The translations under genes were made by a program, and so were the position numbers. Shown one piece after another: positions 680 through 49,270 of a stretch of DNA of 49,746 bases. Position 1 is the first letter of the stretch. Every line of letters begins with the position of its first letter. This stretch comes from Gammaproteobacteria bacterium 42_54_T18 (lineage in GTDB: Bacteria > Pseudomonadota > Gammaproteobacteria > Pseudomonadales > Ketobacteraceae). Below the pieces are notes generated by a model. The model did no database searches, had not been told where the DNA came from, and saw nothing but the letters and a program-made list of their open reading frames with translations. The stretch spans positions 1 through 49,746 of the forward strand of contig MAAL01000148.1 of assembly GCA_002163245.1 (NCBI GenBank), written 5' to 3'.

Positions 680-1729
680 TTAACGCGTTAGCCTGGTTCT
701 GTATTCATTGGGCGACACGTTTGCCCAGTTTTTAAAGGCTTTGGTAAAATTGCTTGCATCGCTGTACCCGAGGGTTTCGGCAATTTGCTCCATGGTGTTT
801 TTGGTGTTTTCCAACAAGTTGATTGCTTGTGTAAAACGTTCAGAGTCTTTTATTTTTTGATAGGTTGTACCTGCATCGTGTAATTTTCTCTTTAATGTGC
901 GGGTGGAAATGTTCATTTCTTCTGCCACCAGGTCAATGGTTGGCGTTTTGTTTTCATGGTTGCGAAAATGAGAGCGAACTTGAGCGGTAATGTCTGTTTT
1001 TAAACTAAGTTGTACTAATTCGATTTCACATTCTTTTTTTGCTTCATCAAAAAGTGAAGGGTTTGCTGATGCTAGTGGCTGTTGTAAGTATGAAAGGGGG
1101 CAGCGTAGCTCATCTCTGTCTTGATTAAATTTAATGGTGAGCCCTGGAGATAATATGCCTGGAGGGATTTCACAGGGGGCATCAAAGGTTAGCAGGATTT
1201 CAGCTTTGATGTGTTCTTGATTTTTTCCTGCTAACCAGCGAGCGATGGTTTCAATACTTATAAATATGGATAACGCATGAAATAGCGCGACTTCAGATGA
1301 TATTGTCTCATCGCTGCCGTGCATACTTAAACAGGCTTGGTCATCTACAATTGCAAAGTTTAAGCGCTCCCCCCCACCGGACCGTGTTTGAATAAACTTA
1401 ATTAATAAACTGGCCGCATCTAATAGGGATTGGCTGCTTTGCGCGGCAAAGCCTAGTACGCCGTGACGTGAGATGGTCAAGCGTTTACCGTATTTGATGG
1501 GTAATAAAGGGTCGTTCAGGCCTTTTATCACGTTTCGAACCACTTGATCCATCGAATGATGACGAATCCGGCAATTGGGTTTTATTAATGTATTCAATGG
1601 GATAGAGGTATCACGCAATACCTCTTGTGGAGTCATTCCACATTCGGACGCGTATTCATTCAGAGCGATTAGGTAATCGACTGAAATTGCGAACTCTCCT
1701 TTACCAATCGTCTCAAAGTTATCTGTCAT
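680..1729 (-). CDS. AraC-family transcriptional regulator (arabinose-binding-like N-terminal domain)
   Basis: The protein has about 349 residues. Its N-terminal region matches the ligand-binding domain found in OruR/ArgR-like AraC regulators, with the typical segment RHGVLGFAAQSS. The C-terminal ~100 residues hold the two helix-turn-helices, including the typical AETLGYSDASNFTKAFKNW. A GTG start at 1756 would add nine residues, but a TATAAT on this strand at 1765-1770 would put transcription start at about that GTG, so I prefer ATG 1729; neither has a good Shine-Dalgarno sequence. The gene is divergent from the PF10118 hydrolase/SDR/hydrolase operon and is its likely local regulator. The effector is unknown. 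Confidence 0.85.
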   Translation of the reverse strand: MTDNFETIGKGEFAISVDYLIALNEYASECGMTPQEVLRDTSIPLNTLIKPNCRIRHHSMDQVVRNVIKGLNDPLLPIKYGKRLTISRHGVLGFAAQSSQSLLDAASLLIKFIQTRSGGGERLNFAIVDDQACLSMHGSDETISSEVALFHALSIFISIETIARWLAGKNQEHIKAEILLTFDAPCEIPPGILSPGLTIKFNQDRDELRCPLSYLQQPLASANPSLFDEAKKECEIELVQLSLKTDITAQVRSHFRNHENKTPTIDLVAEEMNISTRTLKRKLHDAGTTYQKIKDSERFTQAINLLENTKNTMEQIAETLGYSDASNFTKAFKNWANVSPNEYRTRLTR

Positions 1730-1764
1730 GGCCCCATATAACCACAAATTCGACACAATTAAAC

Positions 1765-1770
1765 ATTATA
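1765..1770 (-). promoter_or_regulatory. Candidate -10 element for the AraC-type gene
   Basis: The minus strand reads TATAAT here, 35 bases upstream of the preferred ATG. No clear -35 hexamer lies 16-18 bases further up, which fits an activator-dependent promoter. The 128-base gap between the divergent genes must also carry the promoter of the operon on the other strand. Confidence 0.3.
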
Positions 1771-1857
1771 TCTACCTTAAGACCATAGGATAGTAGAAAC
1801 AGGTACCCGGCAAAGGCGAGGGTGTCGCACATTATATCTGTTTGAGGGGAGTAACAT

Positions 1858-2733
1858 ATGACAGCCATGCAGCGAATTTCCGGGGCTCCGGCCATTAAAC
1901 CACGTAAAATGGACTTTCCATTTAGCGATATCACAGAAAAATATTTCTTTAATAACAACAGTATTATTACTACTTACATGGCTGCGCTGTCCGCAACATT
2001 CCCTCCAGGAGAAAAAGGTTTTATAGATTCGGTGCGAAATTACCGTGATCAAATAACGGATCCAGAATTACAAGAAAGTATTAAGGGATTTATTGGTCAA
2101 GAAGGTCAACATAGTTATCAGCATAAAGAAATTAACAAAGTATTGAATGATTTAGGTTTGTTTGTTCATCGTATAGAAAAGGATTTAGAGAAAAAAATTA
2201 GGGATGACAAAGGGCGCTTGGATAAGCGTGACTTTTTGGCGTCGACCGTTGGAATGGAACATATTACTGCGATTATGGCTGAGTACTTACTTGAAAATCC
2301 GCATATTCTCGATCCTTTGCCTACATCTGCTCGAGAGTTATTGTTGTGGCATGCAGTTGAAGAAATTGAGCATAAAGCCGTAGCGTTTGATGTTTACGAA
2401 GCTTGTGTTGGTGAGCGAAGACGATTGCATATTGTAATGGGTGTTCAAACGGTGTTGTTTTTGTGGCAAGTTGGGTTGTATCAGTTGTCTTTGTTACGCT
2501 GGGCGAAAAAAATGCCTAGTATTAAAGATGCAGTGGGTGCTGCAAAATTCTTTTTTGGTAAGGATGGCTTGGCTCGAAATATCGTTAAACCATATTTGGA
2601 TTATTATCGGGATGATTTTCATCCGTGGGATAACGACAATACAGCATTGATAAATAAGTGGAAAGAATCCAGAGGTTATCCGCTGGATGTAGATTTAACA
2701 GAAGCCAATATTCAGGGGGCAACATCAGTATGA
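1858..2733 (+). CDS. Metal-dependent hydrolase, PF10118 family (ferritin-like diiron fold)
   Basis: This 291-residue protein matches the PF10118 'metal-dependent hydrolase' family. Visible metal-ligand candidates are EGQH (in GQEGQHSYQHKE), GMEHITA and HAVEEIEHKAVAFD, spaced as in ferritin-like four-helix diiron proteins. The function of this family is poorly known, and 'hydrolase' is inherited annotation; an oxidative diiron reaction is equally plausible. ATG 1858 follows a good GAGGGG ribosome-binding site. The stop codon overlaps the start of the SDR gene (ATGA), so the genes are translationally coupled. The first gene of a three-gene operon, probably controlled by the divergent AraC-type regulator. 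Confidence 0.85.
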   Translation: MTAMQRISGAPAIKPRKMDFPFSDITEKYFFNNNSIITTYMAALSATFPPGEKGFIDSVRNYRDQITDPELQESIKGFIGQEGQHSYQHKEINKVLNDLGLFVHRIEKDLEKKIRDDKGRLDKRDFLASTVGMEHITAIMAEYLLENPHILDPLPTSARELLLWHAVEEIEHKAVAFDVYEACVGERRRLHIVMGVQTVLFLWQVGLYQLSLLRWAKKMPSIKDAVGAAKFFFGKDGLARNIVKPYLDYYRDDFHPWDNDNTALINKWKESRGYPLDVDLTEANIQGATSV

Positions 2734-3554
2734 ATAAATTTGATCAAGCGGTTATTGCTATAACAGGAGCATCATCCGGGATTGGGGCTGCACTGGCCTA
2801 TGCATTATCGAAGCAAAATGCGCGGTTAGCATTAAGTGATATTAATGGTGATGCACTGAATGCTGTTAAAGCAGAGTGTTTATCCTTAGGTGCTTCTGCA
2901 GTTGTTGTTGATACGCTTGATGTGGCCGATTCAGTTGCGGTAAATCAGTGGGCTGATAGTGTTTATTCTCATTTCGGCCAAGTGAATGTTGTTATTAATA
3001 ATGCCGGAGTGAGCCTTACTGGTTGTGTTGAAGAAACGTCTGATAAAGATTTTCAGTGGTTAATGAATATTAATTTTTGGGGTGTGGTATATGGTAGCAA
3101 GGCATTTTTACCCTATTTGAAGCGAAGTGAATGGGGACATGTTGTTAATGTATCCAGCCTTTTTGGACTAATTGCGGTTCCTAATCAATCGGCTTACAAC
3201 GCGGCTAAGTTTGCGGTTAAGGGATTTAGTGAAAGTTTGCGCATGGAGTTGGAGATTGAGAAGTCTACGGTCTGTGTAAGCTGTGTGCACCCAGGGGGGG
3301 TGAAAACAAATATCGCTAATAGTGGGCGGTTGGGCCGTGTTGTGGGCCGACAAGCATCCCATGATGATATGAAGAAAGAGTTTAATCAAAAGTTAGCAAG
3401 AACAACTCCGGATCAAGCCGCAGCAATTATTTTGAAAGGTATTGAGCATAAAACACCGCGCATTCTTGTAGGTGTTGACGCCAAAATAGGTGATGTAGTA
3501 CAGCGAATATTACCGACAGGCTATCAAAAACTAATTAGTCGAATGATGGGGTGA
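2730..3554 (+). CDS. Short-chain dehydrogenase/reductase (SDR)
   Basis: A classical SDR of 274 residues. The cofactor motif TGASSGIG is at 12-19, NNAG at 90-93, catalytic Ser143, and the Tyr156-x3-Lys160 pair. The Asp at position 37 at the end of the second strand (LSDING) suggests a preference for NAD(H). The start at ATG 2730 overlaps the previous stop codon by three bases and gives the normal SDR N-terminus; a longer frame upstream lies inside the previous gene. The last bases overlap a possible GTG start of the next gene. The substrate is unknown; its company (diiron-like hydrolase and alpha/beta hydrolase) suggests oxidation or reduction of a lipophilic alcohol or ketone. Confidence 0.9.
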   Translation: MNKFDQAVIAITGASSGIGAALAYALSKQNARLALSDINGDALNAVKAECLSLGASAVVVDTLDVADSVAVNQWADSVYSHFGQVNVVINNAGVSLTGCVEETSDKDFQWLMNINFWGVVYGSKAFLPYLKRSEWGHVVNVSSLFGLIAVPNQSAYNAAKFAVKGFSESLRMELEIEKSTVCVSCVHPGGVKTNIANSGRLGRVVGRQASHDDMKKEFNQKLARTTPDQAAAIILKGIEHKTPRILVGVDAKIGDVVQRILPTGYQKLISRMMG

Positions 3555-3559
3555 TAGAC

Positions 3560-4477
3560 ATGGAAGTAAGAACGGGTTATGCCGAGGCGAATAATATTTC
3601 GATTTATTACGAAGATATGGGGGAACAGCATCACCCGGCGATATTGTTGGTGTGCGGTATGTCTGTGCAATTAATTCATTGGCCAGATGACTTTTGTCAA
3701 AAGTTAGTTGCACAAGGTTATCGGGTGATTCGGTTTGATAATAGAGAAACTGGGCTAACGACACGTAGCCATGTGAAAGTACCACCACCGGTGATGCAGA
3801 GCTTTATTCGTTTTCGTTTGGGAATGGAGGTTCATGCAGAATATAATTTAGATACACTAGTATTAGATGCAGTGTCGTTGTTGGACGCGTTGGATATACA
3901 GCAAGCTCATTGGGTCGGGTTTTCCATGGGGGGAATGATTGCGCAATTAGCTGCGGCACATTATCAACAACGGGTATTAAGTTTAACGTCCATTATGTCC
4001 TCTACCAATGAGCGTCATCTGCCCGGAGCTCGATGGGATGTGTTATTAGCGATATTAAATCGACCCAAAGACAAGTCAGAAAAAGCCATTGTCGATGCTG
4101 GGGTGGCGGTATTTAACAAACTACAAAGCCCTAAATATAAAGTCCATGATGACGTGTTGGCGTTTGATGTTCGTCGCGCTATAGCTCGTGCTCGTCGACC
4201 AATGGCTGGGGCAATGCATCAAATGGCTATCTTTTCTACGGGAGGTTTTTCAAAGCGTTTGAAACAGATCAGTGTACCAACGTTAGTGATACATGGAGAT
4301 AGAGACCTTTTGGTTCGATTACAGGGTGGTAAGCATAGTGCGAAATCAATCCCTAATGCGTCGTTAGAAATAATTCCTGGCATGGGGCATGACTTCCCGC
4401 CAGGGCTTATTGGGAAGCTTACAGGGCTTATTATGGGGCATGTATCCGCAAGCGCCCCCGTGGCTGGAGTCTCATAA
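3560..4477 (+). CDS. Alpha/beta hydrolase
   Basis: A 305-residue alpha/beta hydrolase. The nucleophile elbow GFSMGG places the catalytic Ser at 122, with Asp249 in HGDRDLL and His277 in GMGHDFP completing the triad. The motif DNRETGLT is typical of the branch that includes many marine esterases and epoxide- or lactone-hydrolase-like enzymes. I choose ATG 3560; a GTG at 3551 overlapping the SDR stop would add three residues. Third gene of the operon with the PF10118 protein and SDR. An oxidation/dehydrogenation/ester-hydrolysis sequence is an inference from order only. A strong inverted repeat begins 15 bases after the stop. Confidence 0.88.
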   Translation: MEVRTGYAEANNISIYYEDMGEQHHPAILLVCGMSVQLIHWPDDFCQKLVAQGYRVIRFDNRETGLTTRSHVKVPPPVMQSFIRFRLGMEVHAEYNLDTLVLDAVSLLDALDIQQAHWVGFSMGGMIAQLAAAHYQQRVLSLTSIMSSTNERHLPGARWDVLLAILNRPKDKSEKAIVDAGVAVFNKLQSPKYKVHDDVLAFDVRRAIARARRPMAGAMHQMAIFSTGGFSKRLKQISVPTLVIHGDRDLLVRLQGGKHSAKSIPNASLEIIPGMGHDFPPGLIGKLTGLIMGHVSASAPVAGVS

Positions 4478-4492
4478 GTCGACCCTAGATTG

Positions 4493-4570
4493 AAGTCTCT
4501 AGATGAAAAGAATCGATAGCTTTTGTGCTGTATGTCACAAAATTTATCAGTACTTTTCATCTAGAGACTT
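4493..4570. repeat. Nested inverted repeat after the hydrolase operon
   Basis: Two perfect 18-base arms, 4493-4510 and 4553-4570 (AAGTCTCTAGATGAAAAG and its complement), enclose 42 bases. The loop forms another hairpin: GATA 4515-4518 with TATC 4545-4548, then TTTTGTG 4521-4527 with CACAAAA 4536-4542 around an 8-base tip. The whole 78 bases can fold as one long stem. It may act as a complex terminator of the operon, but it is larger than usual and could be a remnant of a small mobile element. Confidence 0.6.
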
Positions 4571-4608
4571 TTCTCTTATCTGCCAAACTTCTTTACCAAG
4601 CAAGGCGA

Positions 4609-4630
4609 GAACTATCTAGGTAGATAGTTC
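4609..4630. repeat. Palindrome upstream of the 85-residue orphan
   Basis: The arms GAACTATCTA (4609-4618) and TAGATAGTTC (4621-4630) are perfectly complementary and separated by only GG. It lies 50 bases before ATG 4680. Its size and position suit an operator or an RNA hairpin in the leader of that gene. It contains ATCTAG, as the neighbouring nested repeat does. Confidence 0.5.
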
Positions 4631-4679
4631 GATATATAGAGCCTTACACTGTTAATTATAAGGTAAAGAGGGATTCACC

Positions 4680-4937
4680 ATGAGAATGTTTACTATAAAG
4701 CGCGATACTGATAATTCACGTCTATCTCCTGAAGCGACTCGAGCAGTAGCAGCATCAACTCAGTTGAAGCTAAAAAGATATCAATCTCGTCAAGGTAAGT
4801 CTGAGTTCGCCGGTCCTGCTCTTAGTATTGCTGATACCCTGTCAATATCAGCAATTTCTGGAAGTGTTGAGTATATGAAAGTTGAAGTGAATGAAGATGC
4901 ACCATTGTCTGCCGCGATACCTTTTAGTATTCACTAG
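4680..4937 (+). CDS. Hypothetical protein, 85 residues
   Basis: I do not recognise this protein. It is soluble-looking, with no signal peptide and no cysteine. The N-terminal half is basic (KLKRYQSRQGK); the C-terminal half is Ser/Ala/Ile-rich. ATG 4680 follows an adequate AAAGAGGGA ribosome-binding site, and a second ATG lies two codons later. It has its own upstream space holding a 22-base palindrome and converges on the aminotransferase gene with 14 bases between stops. The ribosome-binding site and isolated position support a real gene, but the composition gives no clue to its role. Confidence 0.55.
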   Translation: MRMFTIKRDTDNSRLSPEATRAVAASTQLKLKRYQSRQGKSEFAGPALSIADTLSISAISGSVEYMKVEVNEDAPLSAAIPFSIH

Positions 4938-4951
4938 GCTAAGTTTGTTTG

Positions 4952-5878
4952 TCAGGTTTGTTGCTCAATAATGCCTGTGTATAATACTTTTAACTTCGAA
5001 AATATTTGGCCTGGACATTGTGGAATTAGCTTCCCGTTAATACTTCTCACAGGGATTAATTCAGCACCAGTGCCGGTAAGGAATACTTCATCAGAGGCAA
5101 GCAATGTCGCTTCCGGTATTGATGCAATATCGTAGGGGATTCCCGACTCTTGCGCTAATGCTAAAATGGTTTTTCGGGTAATACCATTTAGTGCACCGTC
5201 GTCACACGGCGGAGTAATTAACTTTCCCTTGTGAACGATGAAAACATTTTCAGCAACGGCTTCCGCTACATTATTTTGGTCGTTCAATAAAATCGCTTCA
5301 TCTACGTTTGTTCTATTTGCCTCTTGTTTTGCCAAAATACTATTGAGGTAATTTAGACTTTTAATCCGTGGATCTAATGCACTGCTTGATATTCGACGTG
5401 TTGTTGCAATAATTGTTGTTATACCTTGATGAATAGCATTGGCTGGCATCATATTGAGTTCAGCAACAATGATGAATACATTTGCTGGTCCACAGCCGAT
5501 AGGGTTTAACCCGATTGCACCAACCCCTCTGGTAACGACTAGTCGAATATACCCATGAGAGAATAAAGCCTGTTCACACAAATTTGTTATTGCACTGATG
5601 AGTTCAGCAGTAGTGTAGGGAATGACAATTTCAAGGCTGTTGGCCGATGCAAATAAACGTTCAATATGATCATGCATCAACAGCGGTTTGTGGTGGTAAA
5701 AACGAATACCTTCAAAAACACCATCACCGTATAAAACCCCGTGATCAAATATGGATAGGGTTGCATCTTCTTGATTGCATTGGTTTCCATTCACCCAGCA
5801 AAGGGCATTTTGGTTGGTTTCTTTTGATCCTGTTTTATTAGGTTCTGCCTTTTTGGGTTCTGTATGGTGTTGTTTCAT
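4952..5878 (-). CDS. Class IV PLP aminotransferase (branched-chain amino acid aminotransferase-like)
   Basis: A 308-residue fold-type IV aminotransferase. Lys173 in IKSLNYLN is the PLP-binding lysine, EAVAENVFIV (206-215) is the cofactor-phosphate region, and GITR (232-235) is conserved in the family. It would transfer an amino group between an amino acid and a 2-oxoacid in the cytosol. Similarity favours IlvE-type enzymes, but D-amino-acid transaminase or aminodeoxychorismate lyase specificity cannot be excluded. The first ~25 residues are Lys/Thr/Asn-rich and outside the usual fold; the start could lie further in. It is divergent from a MocR-type gene, a usual arrangement for a regulator and its target. 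Confidence 0.85.
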   Translation of the reverse strand: MKQHHTEPKKAEPNKTGSKETNQNALCWVNGNQCNQEDATLSIFDHGVLYGDGVFEGIRFYHHKPLLMHDHIERLFASANSLEIVIPYTTAELISAITNLCEQALFSHGYIRLVVTRGVGAIGLNPIGCGPANVFIIVAELNMMPANAIHQGITTIIATTRRISSSALDPRIKSLNYLNSILAKQEANRTNVDEAILLNDQNNVAEAVAENVFIVHKGKLITPPCDDGALNGITRKTILALAQESGIPYDIASIPEATLLASDEVFLTGTGAELIPVRSINGKLIPQCPGQIFSKLKVLYTGIIEQQT

Positions 5879-5933
5879 CGTATGGCCTTTGTTTTGAGGG
5901 GGGTGATAAAAATAAACGGATGCGTATAATCAA

Positions 5934-5973
5934 TACAGATGTAGAAAGTTTATAATGAACCGGTACAGATGTG
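5934..5973. promoter_or_regulatory. Direct repeats in the aminotransferase/MocR divergent region
   Basis: TACAGATGT occurs at 5934-5942 and again at 5964-5972, exactly 30 bases apart (about three helical turns). A TATAAT lies between them at 5951-5956. MocR-type regulators often bind directly repeated half-sites in the gap between themselves and their target, so this is a candidate operator. Confidence 0.4.
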
Positions 5974-6035
5974 TAACATGGTAACTGTGTCGCTTATTGG
6001 TCGTGCAACTGTGCTTGTTGGATATTATCAATCAG

Positions 6036-7463
6036 ATGAAACGTTATGAATCGGTCGCATTGACCCTGACAGAAGAGATTGAAGGGGGCATTTACAAGCC
6101 GGGAGAGCGTTTGCCGGGGGTGCGTAAATTGGCAGCGCTCTTCTCTGTGAGTGTGTCGACGGTTGTGGAGGCGTTAAAGATTGTTGAAGATAATGGTCTG
6201 TTGGATGTGGCTGAACGCTCAGGGCATTATGTTGCACATCCTCAATACCGTCTTAACCCTTTTGTTGCAAACGATGCCGCGGGTACCAATAAGGCTGTAT
6301 TAAAGCCTTGCCCTGTTACACAGTCAGAGTGGGTGATGAACCTTGTTCGAGCAACGCTGGCCTCTGATGTTGTGCAGTTGGGGGCAGCAGTCCCTCATTC
6401 CGATTTTTTAGCTGTTAAAGGAGTCAATAAAGCCCTTAAAGCGGTTTGTGCACACTCTCAGGATCATAGTGATCATTACGATTTTGCGCCGGGTTACGAG
6501 CCCTTGAGGGGGCAAATAGCGTTACGGATGCAAGACTTGCAATGTAATGTTCAGTACACCGATGTCGTTATCACTAACGGTTGTCAAAATGCCTTGGTTT
6601 TGGCGTTAAAAGCGGTAACTCAACCGGGTGACGTGGTTGCGATAGAGTCCCCCACATTTTATGGTTTGTTGCATGTAATTGAATCCCTTGGTTTGCAGGC
6701 GATAGAAATTCCCACAGACCCCATTTCTGGCATTAGTTTATCGGCACTGACGTTAGCCTGTGAGCAGTGGGATGTTAAAGCTTGTGTGTTGATTCCGAAT
6801 TATGGCAACCCCTTAGGCCATTGCATGAGTGAAACAGATAAGCGTCAGCTGGTGACTCTTTCGCAGAATGCAAACGTGCAATTAATTGAAGATGATATTT
6901 ATGGGGATTTGGGACTAAGTAATCAACGATCACTTCCACTGTTATCATTTGACCCAAGTGTTATTTATTGCTCATCTTTTTCCAAGACGTTATCGCCGGG
7001 TTTACGAGTGGGTTGGGTCGTATCACAAAACCATCAAGAGAGAATTGAATACCTTCAGTATGTGAATAGTTTGTCTGCATCCACGATAGCTCAACGCGCA
7101 GTGTATGAATATTTACGTTATCAATCTTATGACCGTTATTTGCGTGAGGTGAGGAGTAAGTTTCGACAACAATTGCATAAGGTAAGATCACTTATTTATA
7201 CCTCTTTTCCTGAAGGCACCAAGGTAAGTGATCCTGCGGGTGGTTTTGTACTATGGGTGGAGTGTCCTGCAACGGTAAATACATTAACGCTTTATGAAGA
7301 TGCATTAGCGAAAAACATTAGTATTGCGCCGGGGCCAATGTTTTCACCACGGAAAAAGTATAAACGTTGTTTTCGGATTAATTGCGCCCAGCCATGGGAT
7401 GCAAAATTTCAGTGGGCTCTAGTAACCTTAGGTGGATTGGTTGAGCTTCAGTTAAGGTTGTGA
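6036..7463 (+). CDS. MocR-family regulator (GntR helix-turn-helix fused to aminotransferase-like domain)
   Basis: A 475-residue fusion. Residues 1-70 are a GntR winged helix (GERLPGVRKLAALFSVS, then STVVEALKIVEDNGLL). Residues ~95-470 form a type I aminotransferase-like domain with NPLG, EDDIYGD and the PLP lysine Lys317 in SSFSKTLSPGLRVGWV. In this family the second domain senses PLP or an amino-acid adduct rather than working as an enzyme. ATG 6036 gives the usual MKRYE-type start; a TTG at 5997 would add 13 residues. It is divergent from the class IV aminotransferase, which it probably regulates. The last 16 bases overlap the 3' end of the convergent PEP-CTERM gene. Confidence 0.88.
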   Translation: MKRYESVALTLTEEIEGGIYKPGERLPGVRKLAALFSVSVSTVVEALKIVEDNGLLDVAERSGHYVAHPQYRLNPFVANDAAGTNKAVLKPCPVTQSEWVMNLVRATLASDVVQLGAAVPHSDFLAVKGVNKALKAVCAHSQDHSDHYDFAPGYEPLRGQIALRMQDLQCNVQYTDVVITNGCQNALVLALKAVTQPGDVVAIESPTFYGLLHVIESLGLQAIEIPTDPISGISLSALTLACEQWDVKACVLIPNYGNPLGHCMSETDKRQLVTLSQNANVQLIEDDIYGDLGLSNQRSLPLLSFDPSVIYCSSFSKTLSPGLRVGWVVSQNHQERIEYLQYVNSLSASTIAQRAVYEYLRYQSYDRYLREVRSKFRQQLHKVRSLIYTSFPEGTKVSDPAGGFVLWVECPATVNTLTLYEDALAKNISIAPGPMFSPRKKYKRCFRINCAQPWDAKFQWALVTLGGLVELQLRL

Positions 7464-44210: not shown

Positions 44211-44555
44211 ATGTTCGCAGTTTCTTTGCTCAGCATATTGTGTATCGCCATTTTTCTTACCATGCTATATCGCTTTATGGACAGAGAGAAGTTGATTCTG
44301 GATCAGTGTAGCCGCACCACATTAGCTGGAGATTTTATCAACCTTAACGAGGGAGTTGTATATTACGAAACAAGTGATCCCTCACAAAAACCAAACGTTG
44401 TCTTGGTACACGGTTTTTCAACACCCAGCTTTATTTGGAACCCTACGTATACTCACTTAGCAAATAGTGGTCATTCGGTGCTTCGGTTTGACCTCTATGG
44501 GCGACACCGGAGTCTTGTAGGCGGTCTCATATGCTTATTTACCCAGACGCCGTAA
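44211..44555 (+). pseudogene. 3'-truncated alpha/beta hydrolase
   Basis: The first ~97 residues are a normal start of an alpha/beta hydrolase: a membrane helix at 1-20, then VVLVHGFSTPSFIW and VLRFDLYGR. Relatives continue with GYSD-like residues and then the Ser nucleophile, Asp and His. Here the similarity stops at about base 44503, and 16 unrelated residues run into antisense sequence of the neighbouring LodB-type gene before a stop. The catalytic triad is absent. ATG 44211 has AAGGAA upstream. The break coincides with the left edge of the lod-type cluster. Confidence 0.75.
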
Positions 44556-45719
44556 CCAAAAAGGTGAATTCGAAAACCGTTTTTCACTACCGTAAAGTTC
44601 ATTGCGAACCCGTGCATACAGACCAAAATCATCAAACACTCGATTCTGGTAAGCCATTAATGCATTTTGTTTCCCATCTATAACCCGTGTAGCAAGTGCT
44701 TTCCCAGCTTGGTATCCATGCTGTAAGGCCTTGGTAATGCCGGCTGATGTGATTGGATCGTAACTACTTGCAGCGTCCCCTACAGCGAGCCAGTTCTCAC
44801 CACAAACAGCAGACAACAACGAGGAGGGGGCTGAGTGTGTGACTATATGCAAAGAGTCTGTGGATAGTGTTGAGAGTACAAGGGATAGTTTTTTACCAAG
44901 CCATTTTGTTTCTTGTAGTAGGCCAAACCAACGTGCAGGTGTGTGCCAATGGTGATTTTTTATCGACTCTTGGTCGGTGCAAAACGTCACTATCATTTTG
45001 TTGTCAGGCAGGCGCGCGGCATACCACCAACCTTCTGACACGGATTCTACCAAGGTATGAGGAAGAATCTTGCAATCTTCAGGTATATCAATAACGGTAC
45101 ACAGGAAAATAACGTCGTCGAATACATTTCGGCAAACATTCAAGCGGCGCGAAAAAGCAGCGGCCTTCCCCGTGGCATCCACAACAAAGTCTGCTTTTAT
45201 GGTGGATTTGTTTTTTTTCTGAACAGAAAAATCAAGGTGCTTATGGCCCTGAACATCATTAACCCCGGTCAACCGCCAGCCGTTATGATAAGTAACGCCA
45301 GCGGTGCAAGCTTTTGCCAGAAGTTGAGCATCAAATCTTTCACGATTGAGGTGGTAGCCTCGCCCAACAATATCGAGAAGAAAGTCGTTGTGTCCTGGTT
45401 TTTCACTGTTCCATAGAGATATGCTGCCTGGGCAGTCCAAATGAATGTCTCCAGCCTCTACAATGTCTTGAACGCCGAGTTGCCTGAGTACCGGTGTTGC
45501 AGCGGGAGGAATCGTTTCACCCACGCGGATATTAGAGCTACGTGGACAATCAAAAAGATGAACGTGGTAGCGACGTGCGGGTTCATTTTCTGGTGATTGT
45601 GTTGCCAGTGATTGCAGGAAGGAGAGAGCAGTTGACGTGCCTGCAGGACCACCGCCTAATATGGCAATGGTCCTCTCGTCATTTCCTGTCGGTTTTAATA
45701 ACGCGTTAATGTTAGTCAT
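44535..45719 (-). CDS. lodB: LodB-type flavoprotein (FAD-dependent tryptophan hydroxylase-like)
   Basis: A 394-residue flavoprotein. The FAD motif is AILGGGPAGTSTALSFL (22-27 glycines); VGETIPPA and the late motif VGDAASSYDPITSAGI are typical of tryptophan-halogenase/LodB flavoproteins. LodB enzymes are needed to make the cysteine tryptophylquinone cofactor of their LodA partner. ATG 45719 overlaps the end of lodA by eight bases, indicating translational coupling; a longer frame to 45776 lies inside lodA. It ends right at the truncated hydrolase. Confidence 0.9.
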   Translation of the reverse strand: MTNINALLKPTGNDERTIAILGGGPAGTSTALSFLQSLATQSPENEPARRYHVHLFDCPRSSNIRVGETIPPAATPVLRQLGVQDIVEAGDIHLDCPGSISLWNSEKPGHNDFLLDIVGRGYHLNRERFDAQLLAKACTAGVTYHNGWRLTGVNDVQGHKHLDFSVQKKNKSTIKADFVVDATGKAAAFSRRLNVCRNVFDDVIFLCTVIDIPEDCKILPHTLVESVSEGWWYAARLPDNKMIVTFCTDQESIKNHHWHTPARWFGLLQETKWLGKKLSLVLSTLSTDSLHIVTHSAPSSLLSAVCGENWLAVGDAASSYDPITSAGITKALQHGYQAGKALATRVIDGKQNALMAYQNRVFDDFGLYARVRNELYGSEKRFSNSPFWLRRLGK

Positions 45720-47811
45720 CCGCCGTCGTTGGTGTGGGTACAGTGGCCGTGGGCCATGGAGCAACCGTATCGCCATAAGACGTGAACTGGCTTTTTACCT
45801 CAAGGAACTTGTCCGGGCCATAATTTCCACCTTTATCCGCAGGAATTTGTATCCCCTGGATGATGAAACCCACCTTGTGCCAGTTATCAACATAATCAAT
45901 ATACTGTTGATACTTACCTTCATTTTGTGGGTAGTTGGTATGGGTCAAATTATTGTTCCCGTCACCATCCCCTCGGATACTAAATAGCTGCTGGCCCAAA
46001 CTCCAAGCTTTGTTTTCAGAATCATAAGTACATAATTCTTTTGGATGAACTTGCACGGGGCGCTGTGCGGGCCACGACCAATACAGCGTGTTGTTGGAGC
46101 TGGGGTTAGGGTCGGGGTTATGCACCGCGCAACTGTTGTAATCAGTGTGCCAAGGCTGGGACATAAATTTACTGAGATCTCCAGGCTCAACTTGTACATT
46201 TTGCAAAGGAATATAACCCACATCCAAAAAGGGTTTACCGGCCTCTACCGATTGATAATTTAAGGCTTGCTCATTGATACGAAAAGGCCCCGTAACGCCT
46301 TGCCATCGTTGCTTATATAAATTGACATCACGAACAATAAAGGTGAGGTCAATGCCTGGGGAATAGCGCCCACCCAAACAGTTTTCAAGTATCACTCTAT
46401 CTAATTTTTCACCCACGCCAAGCGCAGGAAGTGACTCAACAGATTGCTCAGCGTACCACTGCATTAATAAAAAATATTGTGTTGGGCTCACGGAGAGAAA
46501 ACTCTTCGTAGCATCTCCCAGGGCCAACGGCATTTTCACGCCTTCGTCATCCTCTTCGGTATCATTTGGGTCTCTAATCAACGCTTTAAAATTCGGGATT
46601 TTTGCCTCTGGCGATGCGGAATACTGAAGCTTCGCCATCATGTTATGTCCGTTGATACCTGCTTGTGGCAGGTTGGTATTCCAACGTTGAAGAAAAGCAC
46701 CGTGGAAAATCGGTAAAATATCATCTTCCCATGATGCTTTGTAACTTCCTTGATATTTGCCATCACGATAAAGGTTTGGCATCAGTTTCAAATTTTCCAC
46801 CCAGGTATTAAAGACATCATCCCAGGTAGATACCACGTTGCGTGTTTGTGGCGCGTAACCAGGGTCGGTTGTTACTACCCAGCCGCCCACAACCGATGCT
46901 GAGGTATTATCTTCAAAAACAATCACCGCATTAACTGGGCCATCAGAGGTATCATCAAACCAGTAATTATTATCAATAGGATCCTCTAATTGAGGAAGGC
47001 TTTCATCCAATAAGATACCGCTGGCCCGACCATAGCCACCCGTAACAATCAATCGGCCAGTCCCTGTCTCTACCTGCAATTCACCCAAGGTATCAATAGG
47101 GCCATATTTATTGCCCATCGTAAAATGCTCACCGGGAAAACTCAGCGGATAATCGCTCACGGGACAAATATTTCCTTGAGCATCGGCATAGCGACAGTCG
47201 GCGGTCTTATTAAAATGTTCAATGGCGCCGGGACATGCGCTGGATGCGATAGTGCGAGGCCCACCATCGATGACAAGTTTTGTTCGTCGGTTAGGATCCG
47301 CCAGGTCAGATCCTAACCCTGCCAGTTCTGGGTATGCTGTATTTTCAGGGTCACGAATAGGAGGGTAGTGGTATTGACCCTGGTCATCAGGTTCGTAGGC
47401 TTTAATGCCAATCTCTTCACCCGCAGCATCCGTAATTTTATACCAGTTATTTTTTTTATTGGCGACATGCACCGTCCAAACAATGTCTTTGATGACCTTA
47501 CCATTGACCGTGTCGCCAATTTTCACCTCTCGGCCAGGATCATTGCTCGGGTAAGTATCTTGTAGTTGGTCATATACAAAAATACGAAACCGCGCAGCTT
47601 GACGTTTGACTGCACCTGCCGCGTCGCGAAAATCATCTTCCTGAATAGGGGTGTCTTCTGTGCCAGGTTTAATAGGTAAACCACCAAATAAGCCTGTGGT
47701 CTTATCAAGCAACTCACCTGCGGCAGTTTCTGGCGCAATATAATATTCGTCACTATTTCCCACGCGCGCAAAGTTAATAGCCGGATGTACCCTAAAAATT
47801 GTATCTGTCAT
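45712..47811 (-). CDS. lodA: LodA/GoxA-family cysteine-tryptophylquinone oxidase
   Basis: A 699-residue member of the LodA (lysine epsilon-oxidase)/GoxA (glycine oxidase) family: MTDTIFRVHPAINFARVGNS at the start, KLVIDGGPRTI, TGRLIVTGGYGRASG, PWHTDYNSC and WSWPAQRP. In this family the cofactor forms from a Cys and a Trp. The Asp557-x3-Cys561 spacing matches the known Asp and Cys of LodA; the partner Trp is most likely Trp644 in DNWHKVGF, though Trp578 or 580 cannot be excluded. There is no signal peptide, as for known LodA. The substrate amino acid is not predictable. GAGGATA precedes ATG 47811. Placed 40 bases after a haem protein gene and coupled to lodB. Confidence 0.93.
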   Translation of the reverse strand: MTDTIFRVHPAINFARVGNSDEYYIAPETAAGELLDKTTGLFGGLPIKPGTEDTPIQEDDFRDAAGAVKRQAARFRIFVYDQLQDTYPSNDPGREVKIGDTVNGKVIKDIVWTVHVANKKNNWYKITDAAGEEIGIKAYEPDDQGQYHYPPIRDPENTAYPELAGLGSDLADPNRRTKLVIDGGPRTIASSACPGAIEHFNKTADCRYADAQGNICPVSDYPLSFPGEHFTMGNKYGPIDTLGELQVETGTGRLIVTGGYGRASGILLDESLPQLEDPIDNNYWFDDTSDGPVNAVIVFEDNTSASVVGGWVVTTDPGYAPQTRNVVSTWDDVFNTWVENLKLMPNLYRDGKYQGSYKASWEDDILPIFHGAFLQRWNTNLPQAGINGHNMMAKLQYSASPEAKIPNFKALIRDPNDTEEDDEGVKMPLALGDATKSFLSVSPTQYFLLMQWYAEQSVESLPALGVGEKLDRVILENCLGGRYSPGIDLTFIVRDVNLYKQRWQGVTGPFRINEQALNYQSVEAGKPFLDVGYIPLQNVQVEPGDLSKFMSQPWHTDYNSCAVHNPDPNPSSNNTLYWSWPAQRPVQVHPKELCTYDSENKAWSLGQQLFSIRGDGDGNNNLTHTNYPQNEGKYQQYIDYVDNWHKVGFIIQGIQIPADKGGNYGPDKFLEVKSQFTSYGDTVAPWPTATVPTPTTADD

Positions 47812-47851
47812 TATCTTATCCTCAAATTGTCACGATTAACGTGCTGAACCG

Positions 47852-49270
47852 TTATTTGTTATCTAGCGCCATCTCTTGAGACCAGGTATATATATTCACA
47901 AAAGCGTGACTAATATTCAGGTTCATCGGCTTTAATGGATCAAGTAAACGACCGCTACTTGATGTCAGCAATCGTTGCTCAGTGTTGTGACAACGAAAAC
48001 AATTGTTCTCAGTACTCGCAAATTGGGTAAAGGTTTCAATTGTAGGGTTAGAGAGCATCAGCGACCCTATAAGCAGTTGTTTACCCTTATCATTAAAATC
48101 GGTGGCCAATGTCATATTGGGGTTAAGGCCTTTATTCGTCTTAAACCAAATGGCGCCTATTTCTCGGTAGTTAGCCCACACATCGCCTTCTTTTTTTAAG
48201 TTAGATCGAACAATGGCATTAAGCTCTTTGATGCCCGCATCATTTTCGTCAATCGTGCCTTGAATAGTCTCGTTAACGCTGGGTGTTGGGCTTAAGTTGT
48301 AAACAGCGGCATTACCATATTCATATTGCAAGCATACCTGGCCAACCGGTGACATCTTCTGTGTTGCTTGATCCAGCTTCATGTAGGGCGACGTTACGTA
48401 ATTTTTATTGCAACTTGCATAAGTATTGGTCATTTGCGGCGTGGATTTTTCTGGCGTGGGATTAAAAAACGTATAGTCACCGCTAGAGGCTATCACCGTG
48501 TCGGGATTAAATGTCGTAGGAACGATGGGAGCGTTTTTAACATGTTCAAACGTAGCCCAAATCATTTCAGGGTGATTTTTAACAACGCCACCGATATGAA
48601 AGCCCACCAGTGCCAAGGTCACGTCACGAATATTCTCGGTATCAATCACAAACTTCGCCCCTTGCTGCTTTAAACCATAAACGGCGTAATCCATCGTAAA
48701 CATGTCGCTAACATCGTCACCCGGTTCAACAATCTTCCACGAGGCTTTTAATTCAACCACTCCTGCGGGAAAGGGCGTGTCAGGGTTAAAAGCTTGTACT
48801 GCATTGGGAGAGGTGAGGTTATTGCTTTCTATGAACTCTACCCAGTCGTTATTCAGATATTGAGAGTAATAAACAACGTTTCCGTTCTTATCTACAAGAA
48901 TGCCATCTGGCCCGGCTTGAACGGTTTCATCAAAAGGACTGTGTCCAGCGCTCGGTTTCATCACCTCACGGCTCTCAATACCTAATACATCATAGGGTGT
49001 TTCAAAACTAAGGAATCTGGGTTTTCCTCTGTAATCCTGTGTTAGCCACAGAAACATTTGCCATGACCAAGCGTTGAAGGAGCAGATAGAATTGGGTGAA
49101 AAGTTTTTGCTGTCGGGCTCTGGTGTATCTTGATGAGGAAACCAGGTTTTTATTTCTGGTAGTTCTTCCTTACAAGGGTCGCTTACAGCGAATGCGGATT
49201 GAGTCCAAAAAATACTGACTGATAAAATTAACGTGACAACGAACGATCTCCATGAATGTTCAGGTATCAT
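47852..49270 (-). CDS. Exported mono-haem c-type protein, first gene of the lod-type operon
   Basis: A 472-residue protein with a Sec signal peptide (cleavage near AFA-VS, 28). Motifs include SFNAWSWQMFLWL, PAGVVELKASW and VGFHIGGVVK...IWATFEHVKNAP, a pattern I have met in exported bacterial haem proteins with no clear role. One haem c motif, Cys424-x2-CysHis428 (CFRCH), lies near the C-terminus, and extra cysteines occur at 33, 63 and near 283. It is 40 bases upstream of lodA on the same strand. An electron-carrier or acceptor role for the LodA-type enzyme is an inference; standard LodA uses O2. AGAGGTG precedes ATG 49270. Confidence 0.85.
   Translation of the reverse strand: MIPEHSWRSFVVTLILSVSIFWTQSAFAVSDPCKEELPEIKTWFPHQDTPEPDSKNFSPNSICSFNAWSWQMFLWLTQDYRGKPRFLSFETPYDVLGIESREVMKPSAGHSPFDETVQAGPDGILVDKNGNVVYYSQYLNNDWVEFIESNNLTSPNAVQAFNPDTPFPAGVVELKASWKIVEPGDDVSDMFTMDYAVYGLKQQGAKFVIDTENIRDVTLALVGFHIGGVVKNHPEMIWATFEHVKNAPIVPTTFNPDTVIASSGDYTFFNPTPEKSTPQMTNTYASCNKNYVTSPYMKLDQATQKMSPVGQVCLQYEYGNAAVYNLSPTPSVNETIQGTIDENDAGIKELNAIVRSNLKKEGDVWANYREIGAIWFKTNKGLNPNMTLATDFNDKGKQLLIGSLMLSNPTIETFTQFASTENNCFRCHNTEQRLLTSSSGRLLDPLKPMNLNISHAFVNIYTWSQEMALDNK

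Follow-up and report, generated by a model that had tools for sequence, protein, structure and literature searches.

The window analysed here, a stretch of 49,746 nucleotides from Gammaproteobacteria bacterium 42_54_T18 (contig MAAL01000148.1), carries on its minus strand a three-gene set encoding an exported single-haem protein, a LodA-type protein and a LodB-type flavoprotein. The order haem-lodA-lodB is a conserved, previously undescribed operon type; what is new is the partner haem family and its implications for LodA, the cysteine tryptophylquinone (CTQ) enzyme itself being known. We assign a probability of about 0.55 to the reading that the operon makes a haem-coupled CTQ dehydrogenase, in which the CTQ delivers its electrons to the upstream haem protein. 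Such a transfer appears as the best explanation because the same haem family also adjoins GMC enzymes, most of them with the 3Fe-4S spacing known from dehydrogenases that feed a cytochrome c subunit.

The haem gene (47852-49270, minus strand, as are all features of the operon) encodes 472 residues and is the first member encountered here of a P460-like family without a name. Its product has one CxxCH haem c attachment motif (CFRCH, residues 424-428; 47987-48001) and, judged by eye, a Sec-like N-terminal signal (residues 1-28; 49187-49270) with likely cleavage after AFA. After a gap of 40 bases (47812-47851) follows the lodA-type gene (45712-47811), encoding 699 residues with LodA_N and LodA_C and no signal peptide, and then the lodB-type flavoprotein gene (44535-45719), encoding 394 residues counted from an internal ATG at 45719. 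The first-pass annotation, made from the window alone, had described such a three-gene operon, and the open reading frames (ORFs) bear it out for gene order, the 472 residues, the single CxxCH, the distance to lodA and the Sec-like N-terminus of the haem protein. The eight-base overlap of lodA and lodB that it gave holds for a lodB start at 45719, whereas the overlap amounts to 65 bases if the first ATG of the ORF (45776) is taken.

An alignment of LodA from the window and from two other genomes of the same gene order was used as query in a scan of 84,980 species genomes, yielding 200 candidate stretches, of which 119 were confirmed and the best 80 taken. These 80 lodA loci form a biased set, as they were picked for likeness to haem-linked LodA. 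The first-pass annotation had tied its proposal to the recurrence of the haem family beside lodA in other genomes; within this set the neighbourhood is anything but rare: 46 of the 80 loci have a haem-family gene upstream of lodA in the same orientation. Between the haem stop codon and the first aligned residue of LodA lie 2-106 bp in 45 of these loci and 370 bp in one (L082, with a low-scoring haem protein). Among the remaining loci, four have a haem gene 414-1142 bp upstream and one has it downstream, 25 have none and four lie too near a contig start. The haem-linked LodA occur in Pseudomonadota, Bacteroidota and one Verrucomicrobiota genome. All 46 lodA-adjacent haem proteins contain exactly one CxxCH, 45 have a hydrophobic N-terminus, and a simple pattern detects a lipobox-like motif in 13. 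In the class-wide sample LodA_N was matched in 10 of 369 genomes, and a haem gene is present in two of nine neighbourhoods (the window and L036), the tenth genome being left out for its sub-threshold match. The haem family was found in 9 of 145 relatives, 9 of the 369 genomes of the class and 17 of 398 genomes of the phylum, a rarity at which chance can be ruled out as the cause of its adjacency to lodA. A search for viral copies confirmed none. In the source genome, single-sequence searches return one haem-protein match and one LodA match, and the family profile adds a weak second haem-family match on contig 140 (88021-88602; L198), a distant member of 375 residues with one CxxCH and no recognised redox neighbour.

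Haem protein and LodA share their history. On a tree of 90 LodA (quick method, midpoint root), with 49 labelled as haem-linked and 32 as not, the label changes five times compared to a mean of 25.5 in shuffles, and none of 500 shuffles gave a value as low. For 41 of the 46 linked loci, those with complete LodA and LodB, pairwise distances correlate at 0.82 for LodA and haem protein (reached in 0 of 1000 permutations), at 0.78 for LodA and LodB and at 0.65 for haem protein and LodB, and the partial correlation of LodA and haem protein given LodB is 0.67. The haem protein is no less closely tied to LodA than is the known type of maturase.

The strongest argument for electron acceptance from a partner enzyme comes from family members beside 3Fe-4S GMC dehydrogenases. 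For 55 members in 49 stretches, the window and L036 excluded, same-strand neighbours within 2.5 kb were GMC (six), a family here termed u591 (five), lodA (three), YCF48/BNR-type (three), WD40 (three), tyrosinase (two), lytic polysaccharide monooxygenase (LPMO; one) and a molybdopterin enzyme (one). The gene order haem, small subunit, GMC is found in five of the six GMC loci (L023, L145, L186, L189, L192), and the GMC proteins of these five contain C-x5-C-x3-C, which is absent in the sixth (L182). This is the ligand spacing of the 3Fe-4S cluster in the FAD-GDH of B. cepacia, where Cys212, Cys218 and Cys222 ligate the cluster from which the cytochrome c subunit receives its electrons (PMC6719666). 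The five stretches contain no frame of at least 100 residues with two or more CxxCH, so that the haem family occupies the place of the cytochrome gene. The GMC-linked haem-family members have one CxxCH each; extra single-CxxCH frames are present in L189 (353 residues) and L192 (123 residues). The small subunit of L145 just passes as Pfam FAD-SLDH (24.4 bits, cut-off 24.2), and the RefSeq names at this locus are cytochrome C, sorbitol dehydrogenase and GMC family oxidoreductase.

Further neighbours of the family were observed. At L194 an LPMO_10 protein with a CBM_2 domain is encoded about 200 bp upstream of the haem-family gene (2958-4688 and 4869-6329), a pairing for which an electron-donor role or a peroxide link is possible. 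At L144 the haem-family gene (5491-7011) follows about 100 bp after a gene for a 1419-residue molybdopterin/FAD/2Fe-2S enzyme of the xanthine dehydrogenase type (1127-5386). The u591 proteins, of 580-700 residues, adjoin haem genes at L029, L170, L175, L193 and, by eye, L092 (1450-3270), with a tyrosinase also present at two loci; three of them, scanned in Pfam and/or NCBIfam, gave no match.

With respect to the enzyme itself, the window LodA matches LodA_N with 165 bits (cut-off 26) and LodA_C with 117 bits (cut-off 25) in Pfam. It shares with LodA (L-lysine 6-oxidase) and GoxA (glycine oxidase) these two domains, both CTQ residues, the D512 equivalent and a LodB-type gene downstream, and differs from them in the haem gene ahead of it and in scores far under the NCBIfam equivalog cut-offs, i.e., 210 bits on the lysine 6-oxidase model (cut-off 600) and 130 bits on the GoxA model (cut-off 750), so that neither activity is assignable. 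In the alignment to the solved LodA (3weu, native numbering) C561 (codon 46129-46131) corresponds to C516 and W580 (codon 46072-46074) to W581, the two CTQ residues, and D557 to D512; the C448 position of LodA is Ser in the window protein. The CTQ Cys and Trp are kept in 48 of 49 haem-linked LodA rows, the remaining row being truncated by the contig, and in 32 of 32 others. LodB scores 241 bits on the NCBIfam LodB model (E 1.5e-71; equivalog cut-off 400 bits) and also matches GoxB (210 bits) and QhpG (162 bits), both again under the equivalog cut-offs.

Some LodA of other build were seen. Three long LodA (L064, L090, L117), with no haem gene nearby, bear a C-terminal PF14518 iron-containing redox domain; in five proteins of the published LodA survey this domain is located N-terminally (PMC4417212). 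None of the LodA examined is naturally fused to the haem protein, these long ones carrying PF14518 instead. At L063 (5998-9946) two overlapping LodA-type frames stand in tandem ahead of a single lodB.

According to the proposed mechanism, LodB would hydroxylate the LodA tryptophan and thereby start CTQ formation, as is reported for QhpG acting on the tryptophan of QHNDH (PMC7876137). LodA would oxidise a primary amine or amino acid, and the reduced CTQ would be reoxidised by the one c haem of the upstream protein, in place of O2 or in competition with it. The haem protein, soluble or lipid-anchored and located in the periplasm or outside, would hand the electrons on, and the same family would serve other exported redox enzymes, chiefly the GMC/3Fe-4S dehydrogenases. 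A wider formulation, which we put forward tentatively and regard as doubtful in its full extent, would make this widespread, undescribed, P460-like one-haem family of about 450 residues, with its invariant lysine at the cross-link site and histidine on the distal strand, an exchangeable exported redox partner of CTQ (LodA), FAD/3Fe-4S (GMC), molybdopterin (xanthine dehydrogenase type) and copper enzymes (tyrosinase, LPMO); haem-linked LodA would be CTQ dehydrogenases, and peroxide leaked by the partner may mature the haem cross-link.

Published work on LodA is compatible with such a coupling in part. In a survey of 168 LodA-like genes, groups IB, IC and ID have no oxidase activity on record, tests on cultures of several bearers detected no lysine oxidase activity, and group IB includes a LodA of O. 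beijerinckii DSM 7166 (PMC4417212); the LodA of this strain at L041 is haem-linked. The same survey names associations with lodB, tyrosinase, multicopper oxidase, ferritin-like and catalase-type proteins, and the word cytochrome is absent from its main text (PMC4417212). In the open-access literature no paper was found that combines LodA with cytochrome P460, a CTQ-dependent enzyme with a cytochrome, or lodA with a c-type cytochrome and quinone.

The haem protein is probably no ordinary cytochrome. Its sequence matched no entry of Pfam, NCBIfam or the PDB within the limits applied, and a family-profile search for a solved relative returned short CxxCH matches alone (E 0.7 or worse); in plasmid-collection records the family is mostly named hypothetical protein and once cytochrome C. 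A multihaem cytochrome and a QHNDH-like or MauG-like identity are ruled out by the single CxxCH and the lack of such a domain. Among 99 aligned members K175 (codon 48746-48748), H225 (codon 48596-48598), Y368, E412 and CxxCH are identical in all, and W178 is kept in 98, N408 in 97 and W238 in 91. Of the motifs SWQMFLWL and IWATFEHV, which the first-pass annotation had singled out as conserved, parts proved to be so, namely F65, W70 and F73 in the SWQMF region and W238, F241 and E242 in IWATFEH (82 to 94 of 99 members).

Several comparisons point to the P460/c'-beta superfamily, which is known for hydroxylamine oxidation and gas binding. An AlphaFold2 model built from 51 lodA-locus relatives reached a mean predicted local distance difference test score (pLDDT) of 88.3 and a predicted template modelling score of 0.89. 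Foldseek with this model found no solved structure at E <0.001; its ranks 1, 3 and 5 were cytochrome c'-beta 7ead (E 0.19), cytochrome P460 2je2 (E 0.71) and cytochrome c'-beta 7s5o (E 0.75), all of one superfamily. Replication of the fold match on a divergent member (L077) failed: its model was poor (pLDDT 72) and weak around the haem site, and none of these structures was among the 50 rows listed. PF16694 (Cytochrome_P460; gathering score 27 bits) does not match the window protein; it gives sub-threshold matches in 15 of the 51 relatives (best E 0.0021; next family 2 of 51), with a best score of 16.5 bits among relatives scanned singly, located in the lysine strand or the CxxCH region, and it matches 2 of 10 more distant members. 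Full-length profile comparison gave P values of 0.001-0.01 and placed K175 in register with the lysine of P460. When the core blocks were cut out, the P460 probability was 93.5 and 94.2% (scores 48.1 and 49.3); among the controls, single-strand matches with broken block order scored 43.7-44.5, and the highest scores of random excisions were 44.5 and 37.0. By these controls most of the P460 score comes from the lysine strand.

In M. capsulatus P460 (chain PDGAILVK) the haem cross-linking K78 stands five residues after a Gly and D102 fifteen before a Trp (numbering and lysine positions from PMC11928373). In the window protein K175 likewise stands five after G170 and G223 fifteen before W238, and H225, a candidate distal haem residue, lies two residues past G223 on the same strand and would thus face the same side, if the alignment holds. 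Shared features are furthermore the single C-terminal CxxCH, a beta-rich core and the weak Pfam, profile and fold matches; differences are the length (about 450 compared to 125-200 residues), with extra N-terminal and central segments, the His two residues beyond the position of the distal carboxylate, and scores under the Pfam gathering score. Alignment and model together are suggestive of a strongly enlarged relative of the superfamily; failing Pfam's threshold, the family is not filed as a P460 member. The source genome also holds three ordinary cytochrome P460 (PF16694) matches (contig 1, 36184-37244; contig 48, 2301-2555), two of them in tandem. At L025 (8194-9645) a haem-family protein carries a C-terminal mannan-binding MVL domain (36.6 bits), which suggests action at a surface or glycan.

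Several points weigh against a haem-coupled dehydrogenase. The haem protein is exported while its partner lacks a signal: in 45 of 46 haem-linked LodA at most 12 residues can precede the first aligned residue, which leaves no signal peptide. The absence of a Sec signal noted in the first-pass annotation is thereby a trait of the haem-linked group. It has been reported that M. mediterranea GoxA has a twin-arginine signal (PMC3948610) and that M. mediterranea LodA is secreted in stationary phase, LodB being intracellular (PMC2855505), so that LodA-type proteins, including signal-less ones, do leave the cell. About half of the 55 surveyed members have no redox neighbour recognised by the seed set. 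The oxygen-site comparison that the first-pass annotation had proposed did not separate the groups, as the CTQ residues and the D512 equivalent are conserved equally with and without a haem gene; D495 is the sole LodA position found to set the haem-linked group apart. No published biochemistry was found for members of the haem family. Haems of the P460 superfamily are usually ligand-binding or catalytic and not electron carriers (PMC11928373). Moreover, the survey reports a part in H2O2 generation for the LodA-like proteins of Caulobacter crescentus (group IB) and Chromobacterium violaceum (group IC) (PMC4417212); in a C. vibrioides strain a haem-family member lies two genes ahead of lodA, the gene in between being ferritin-like by eye. 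In Chromobacterium the haem family is present in 6 of 19 genomes of the genus and lodA-adjacent in 2 of 19, and C. violaceum itself may therefore not be haem-linked. The earlier suggestion that LodA hands electrons to the haem protein instead of, or as well as, to O2 is partly supported. In its favour stands the recurrence of the family beside lodA and, independently, beside 3Fe-4S GMC dehydrogenases; in view of the Caulobacter report O2 may still compete, and the probably P460-like nature of the protein opens a rival explanation by peroxide chemistry.

The peroxide chemistry of P460-type haem is the main rival explanation and did not figure in the list of the first-pass annotation. In this case LodA would be an ordinary H2O2-producing oxidase, and the haem protein would be a peroxidase or use the H2O2 for its own K175 haem-lysine cross-link. 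We consider this unlikely on balance, yet it accounts for an invariant lysine at the P460 cross-link position (99 of 99 members), and it was reported that the P460 cross-link forms with peroxide and that one cytochrome c'-beta is peroxidase-like (PMC11928373). The fusion of PF14518 to other LodA and the catalase-type fusions reported in the survey (PMC4417212) show that LodA is repeatedly paired with iron or haem proteins. This explanation leaves unaccounted for the 3Fe-4S GMC neighbours, enzymes designed to deliver electrons to a cytochrome. The lysine of the N. europaea protein keeps peroxidase activity down (PMC11928373), and the P460 relation itself is under the Pfam threshold.

That the genes are merely co-regulated is improbable in our view; shared physiology (biofilm, surface or peroxide stress, ligand sensing) would then unite them with no electron transfer between the products. 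The signal-less LodA, the many family members lacking a redox neighbour and the several members in other contexts that adjoin WD40, BNR or ferritin-like proteins would fit, but gene order is fixed, gaps are short and co-divergence is strong. The same close linkage and co-divergence would also be expected of a maturation factor that helps to build the CTQ in LodA, as MauG does for tryptophan tryptophylquinone. This role is very improbable: MauG has two haems, LodB as the known maturase type is already present, the CTQ residues are kept in all 32 LodA lacking a nearby haem gene, and enzymes without CTQ also adjoin family members. The haem protein is, moreover, exported, whereas LodB acts inside the cell (PMC2855505).

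Among known systems, direct-electron-transfer FAD dehydrogenases (FAD-GDH, sorbitol and gluconate dehydrogenases) have a cytochrome c subunit with which the haem family shares the operon place by the small and 3Fe-4S GMC subunits; that subunit has three haems, whereas the haem family has one and no similarity to known cytochrome domains was found. QHNDH is likewise a CTQ enzyme coupled to c haem, and its maturase QhpG is matched by the window LodB. In contrast to QHNDH, the single haem of the window system resides on a separate exported protein, and none of the three proteins has a QHNDH domain (Pfam, NCBIfam).

Proteins of the LodA family are annotated as oxidases and their roles are explained via H2O2, in antimicrobial action and biofilm dispersal. 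Should a large share of these proteins depend on a dedicated haem partner, their substrates, products and physiology would have to be reconsidered, and haem-linked LodA may not be the simple peroxide makers of their annotation. The undetected oxidase activity in groups IB to ID (PMC4417212) would be simply explained. The haem family would represent a new branch or neighbour of the P460 superfamily and a novel type of electron acceptor that could serve in enzyme electrodes.

Next to the operon, a plus-strand ORF of 114 residues (44211-44555) overlaps the 3' end of lodB; it matches the start part only of alpha/beta-hydrolase families and looks like a truncated hydrolase gene.

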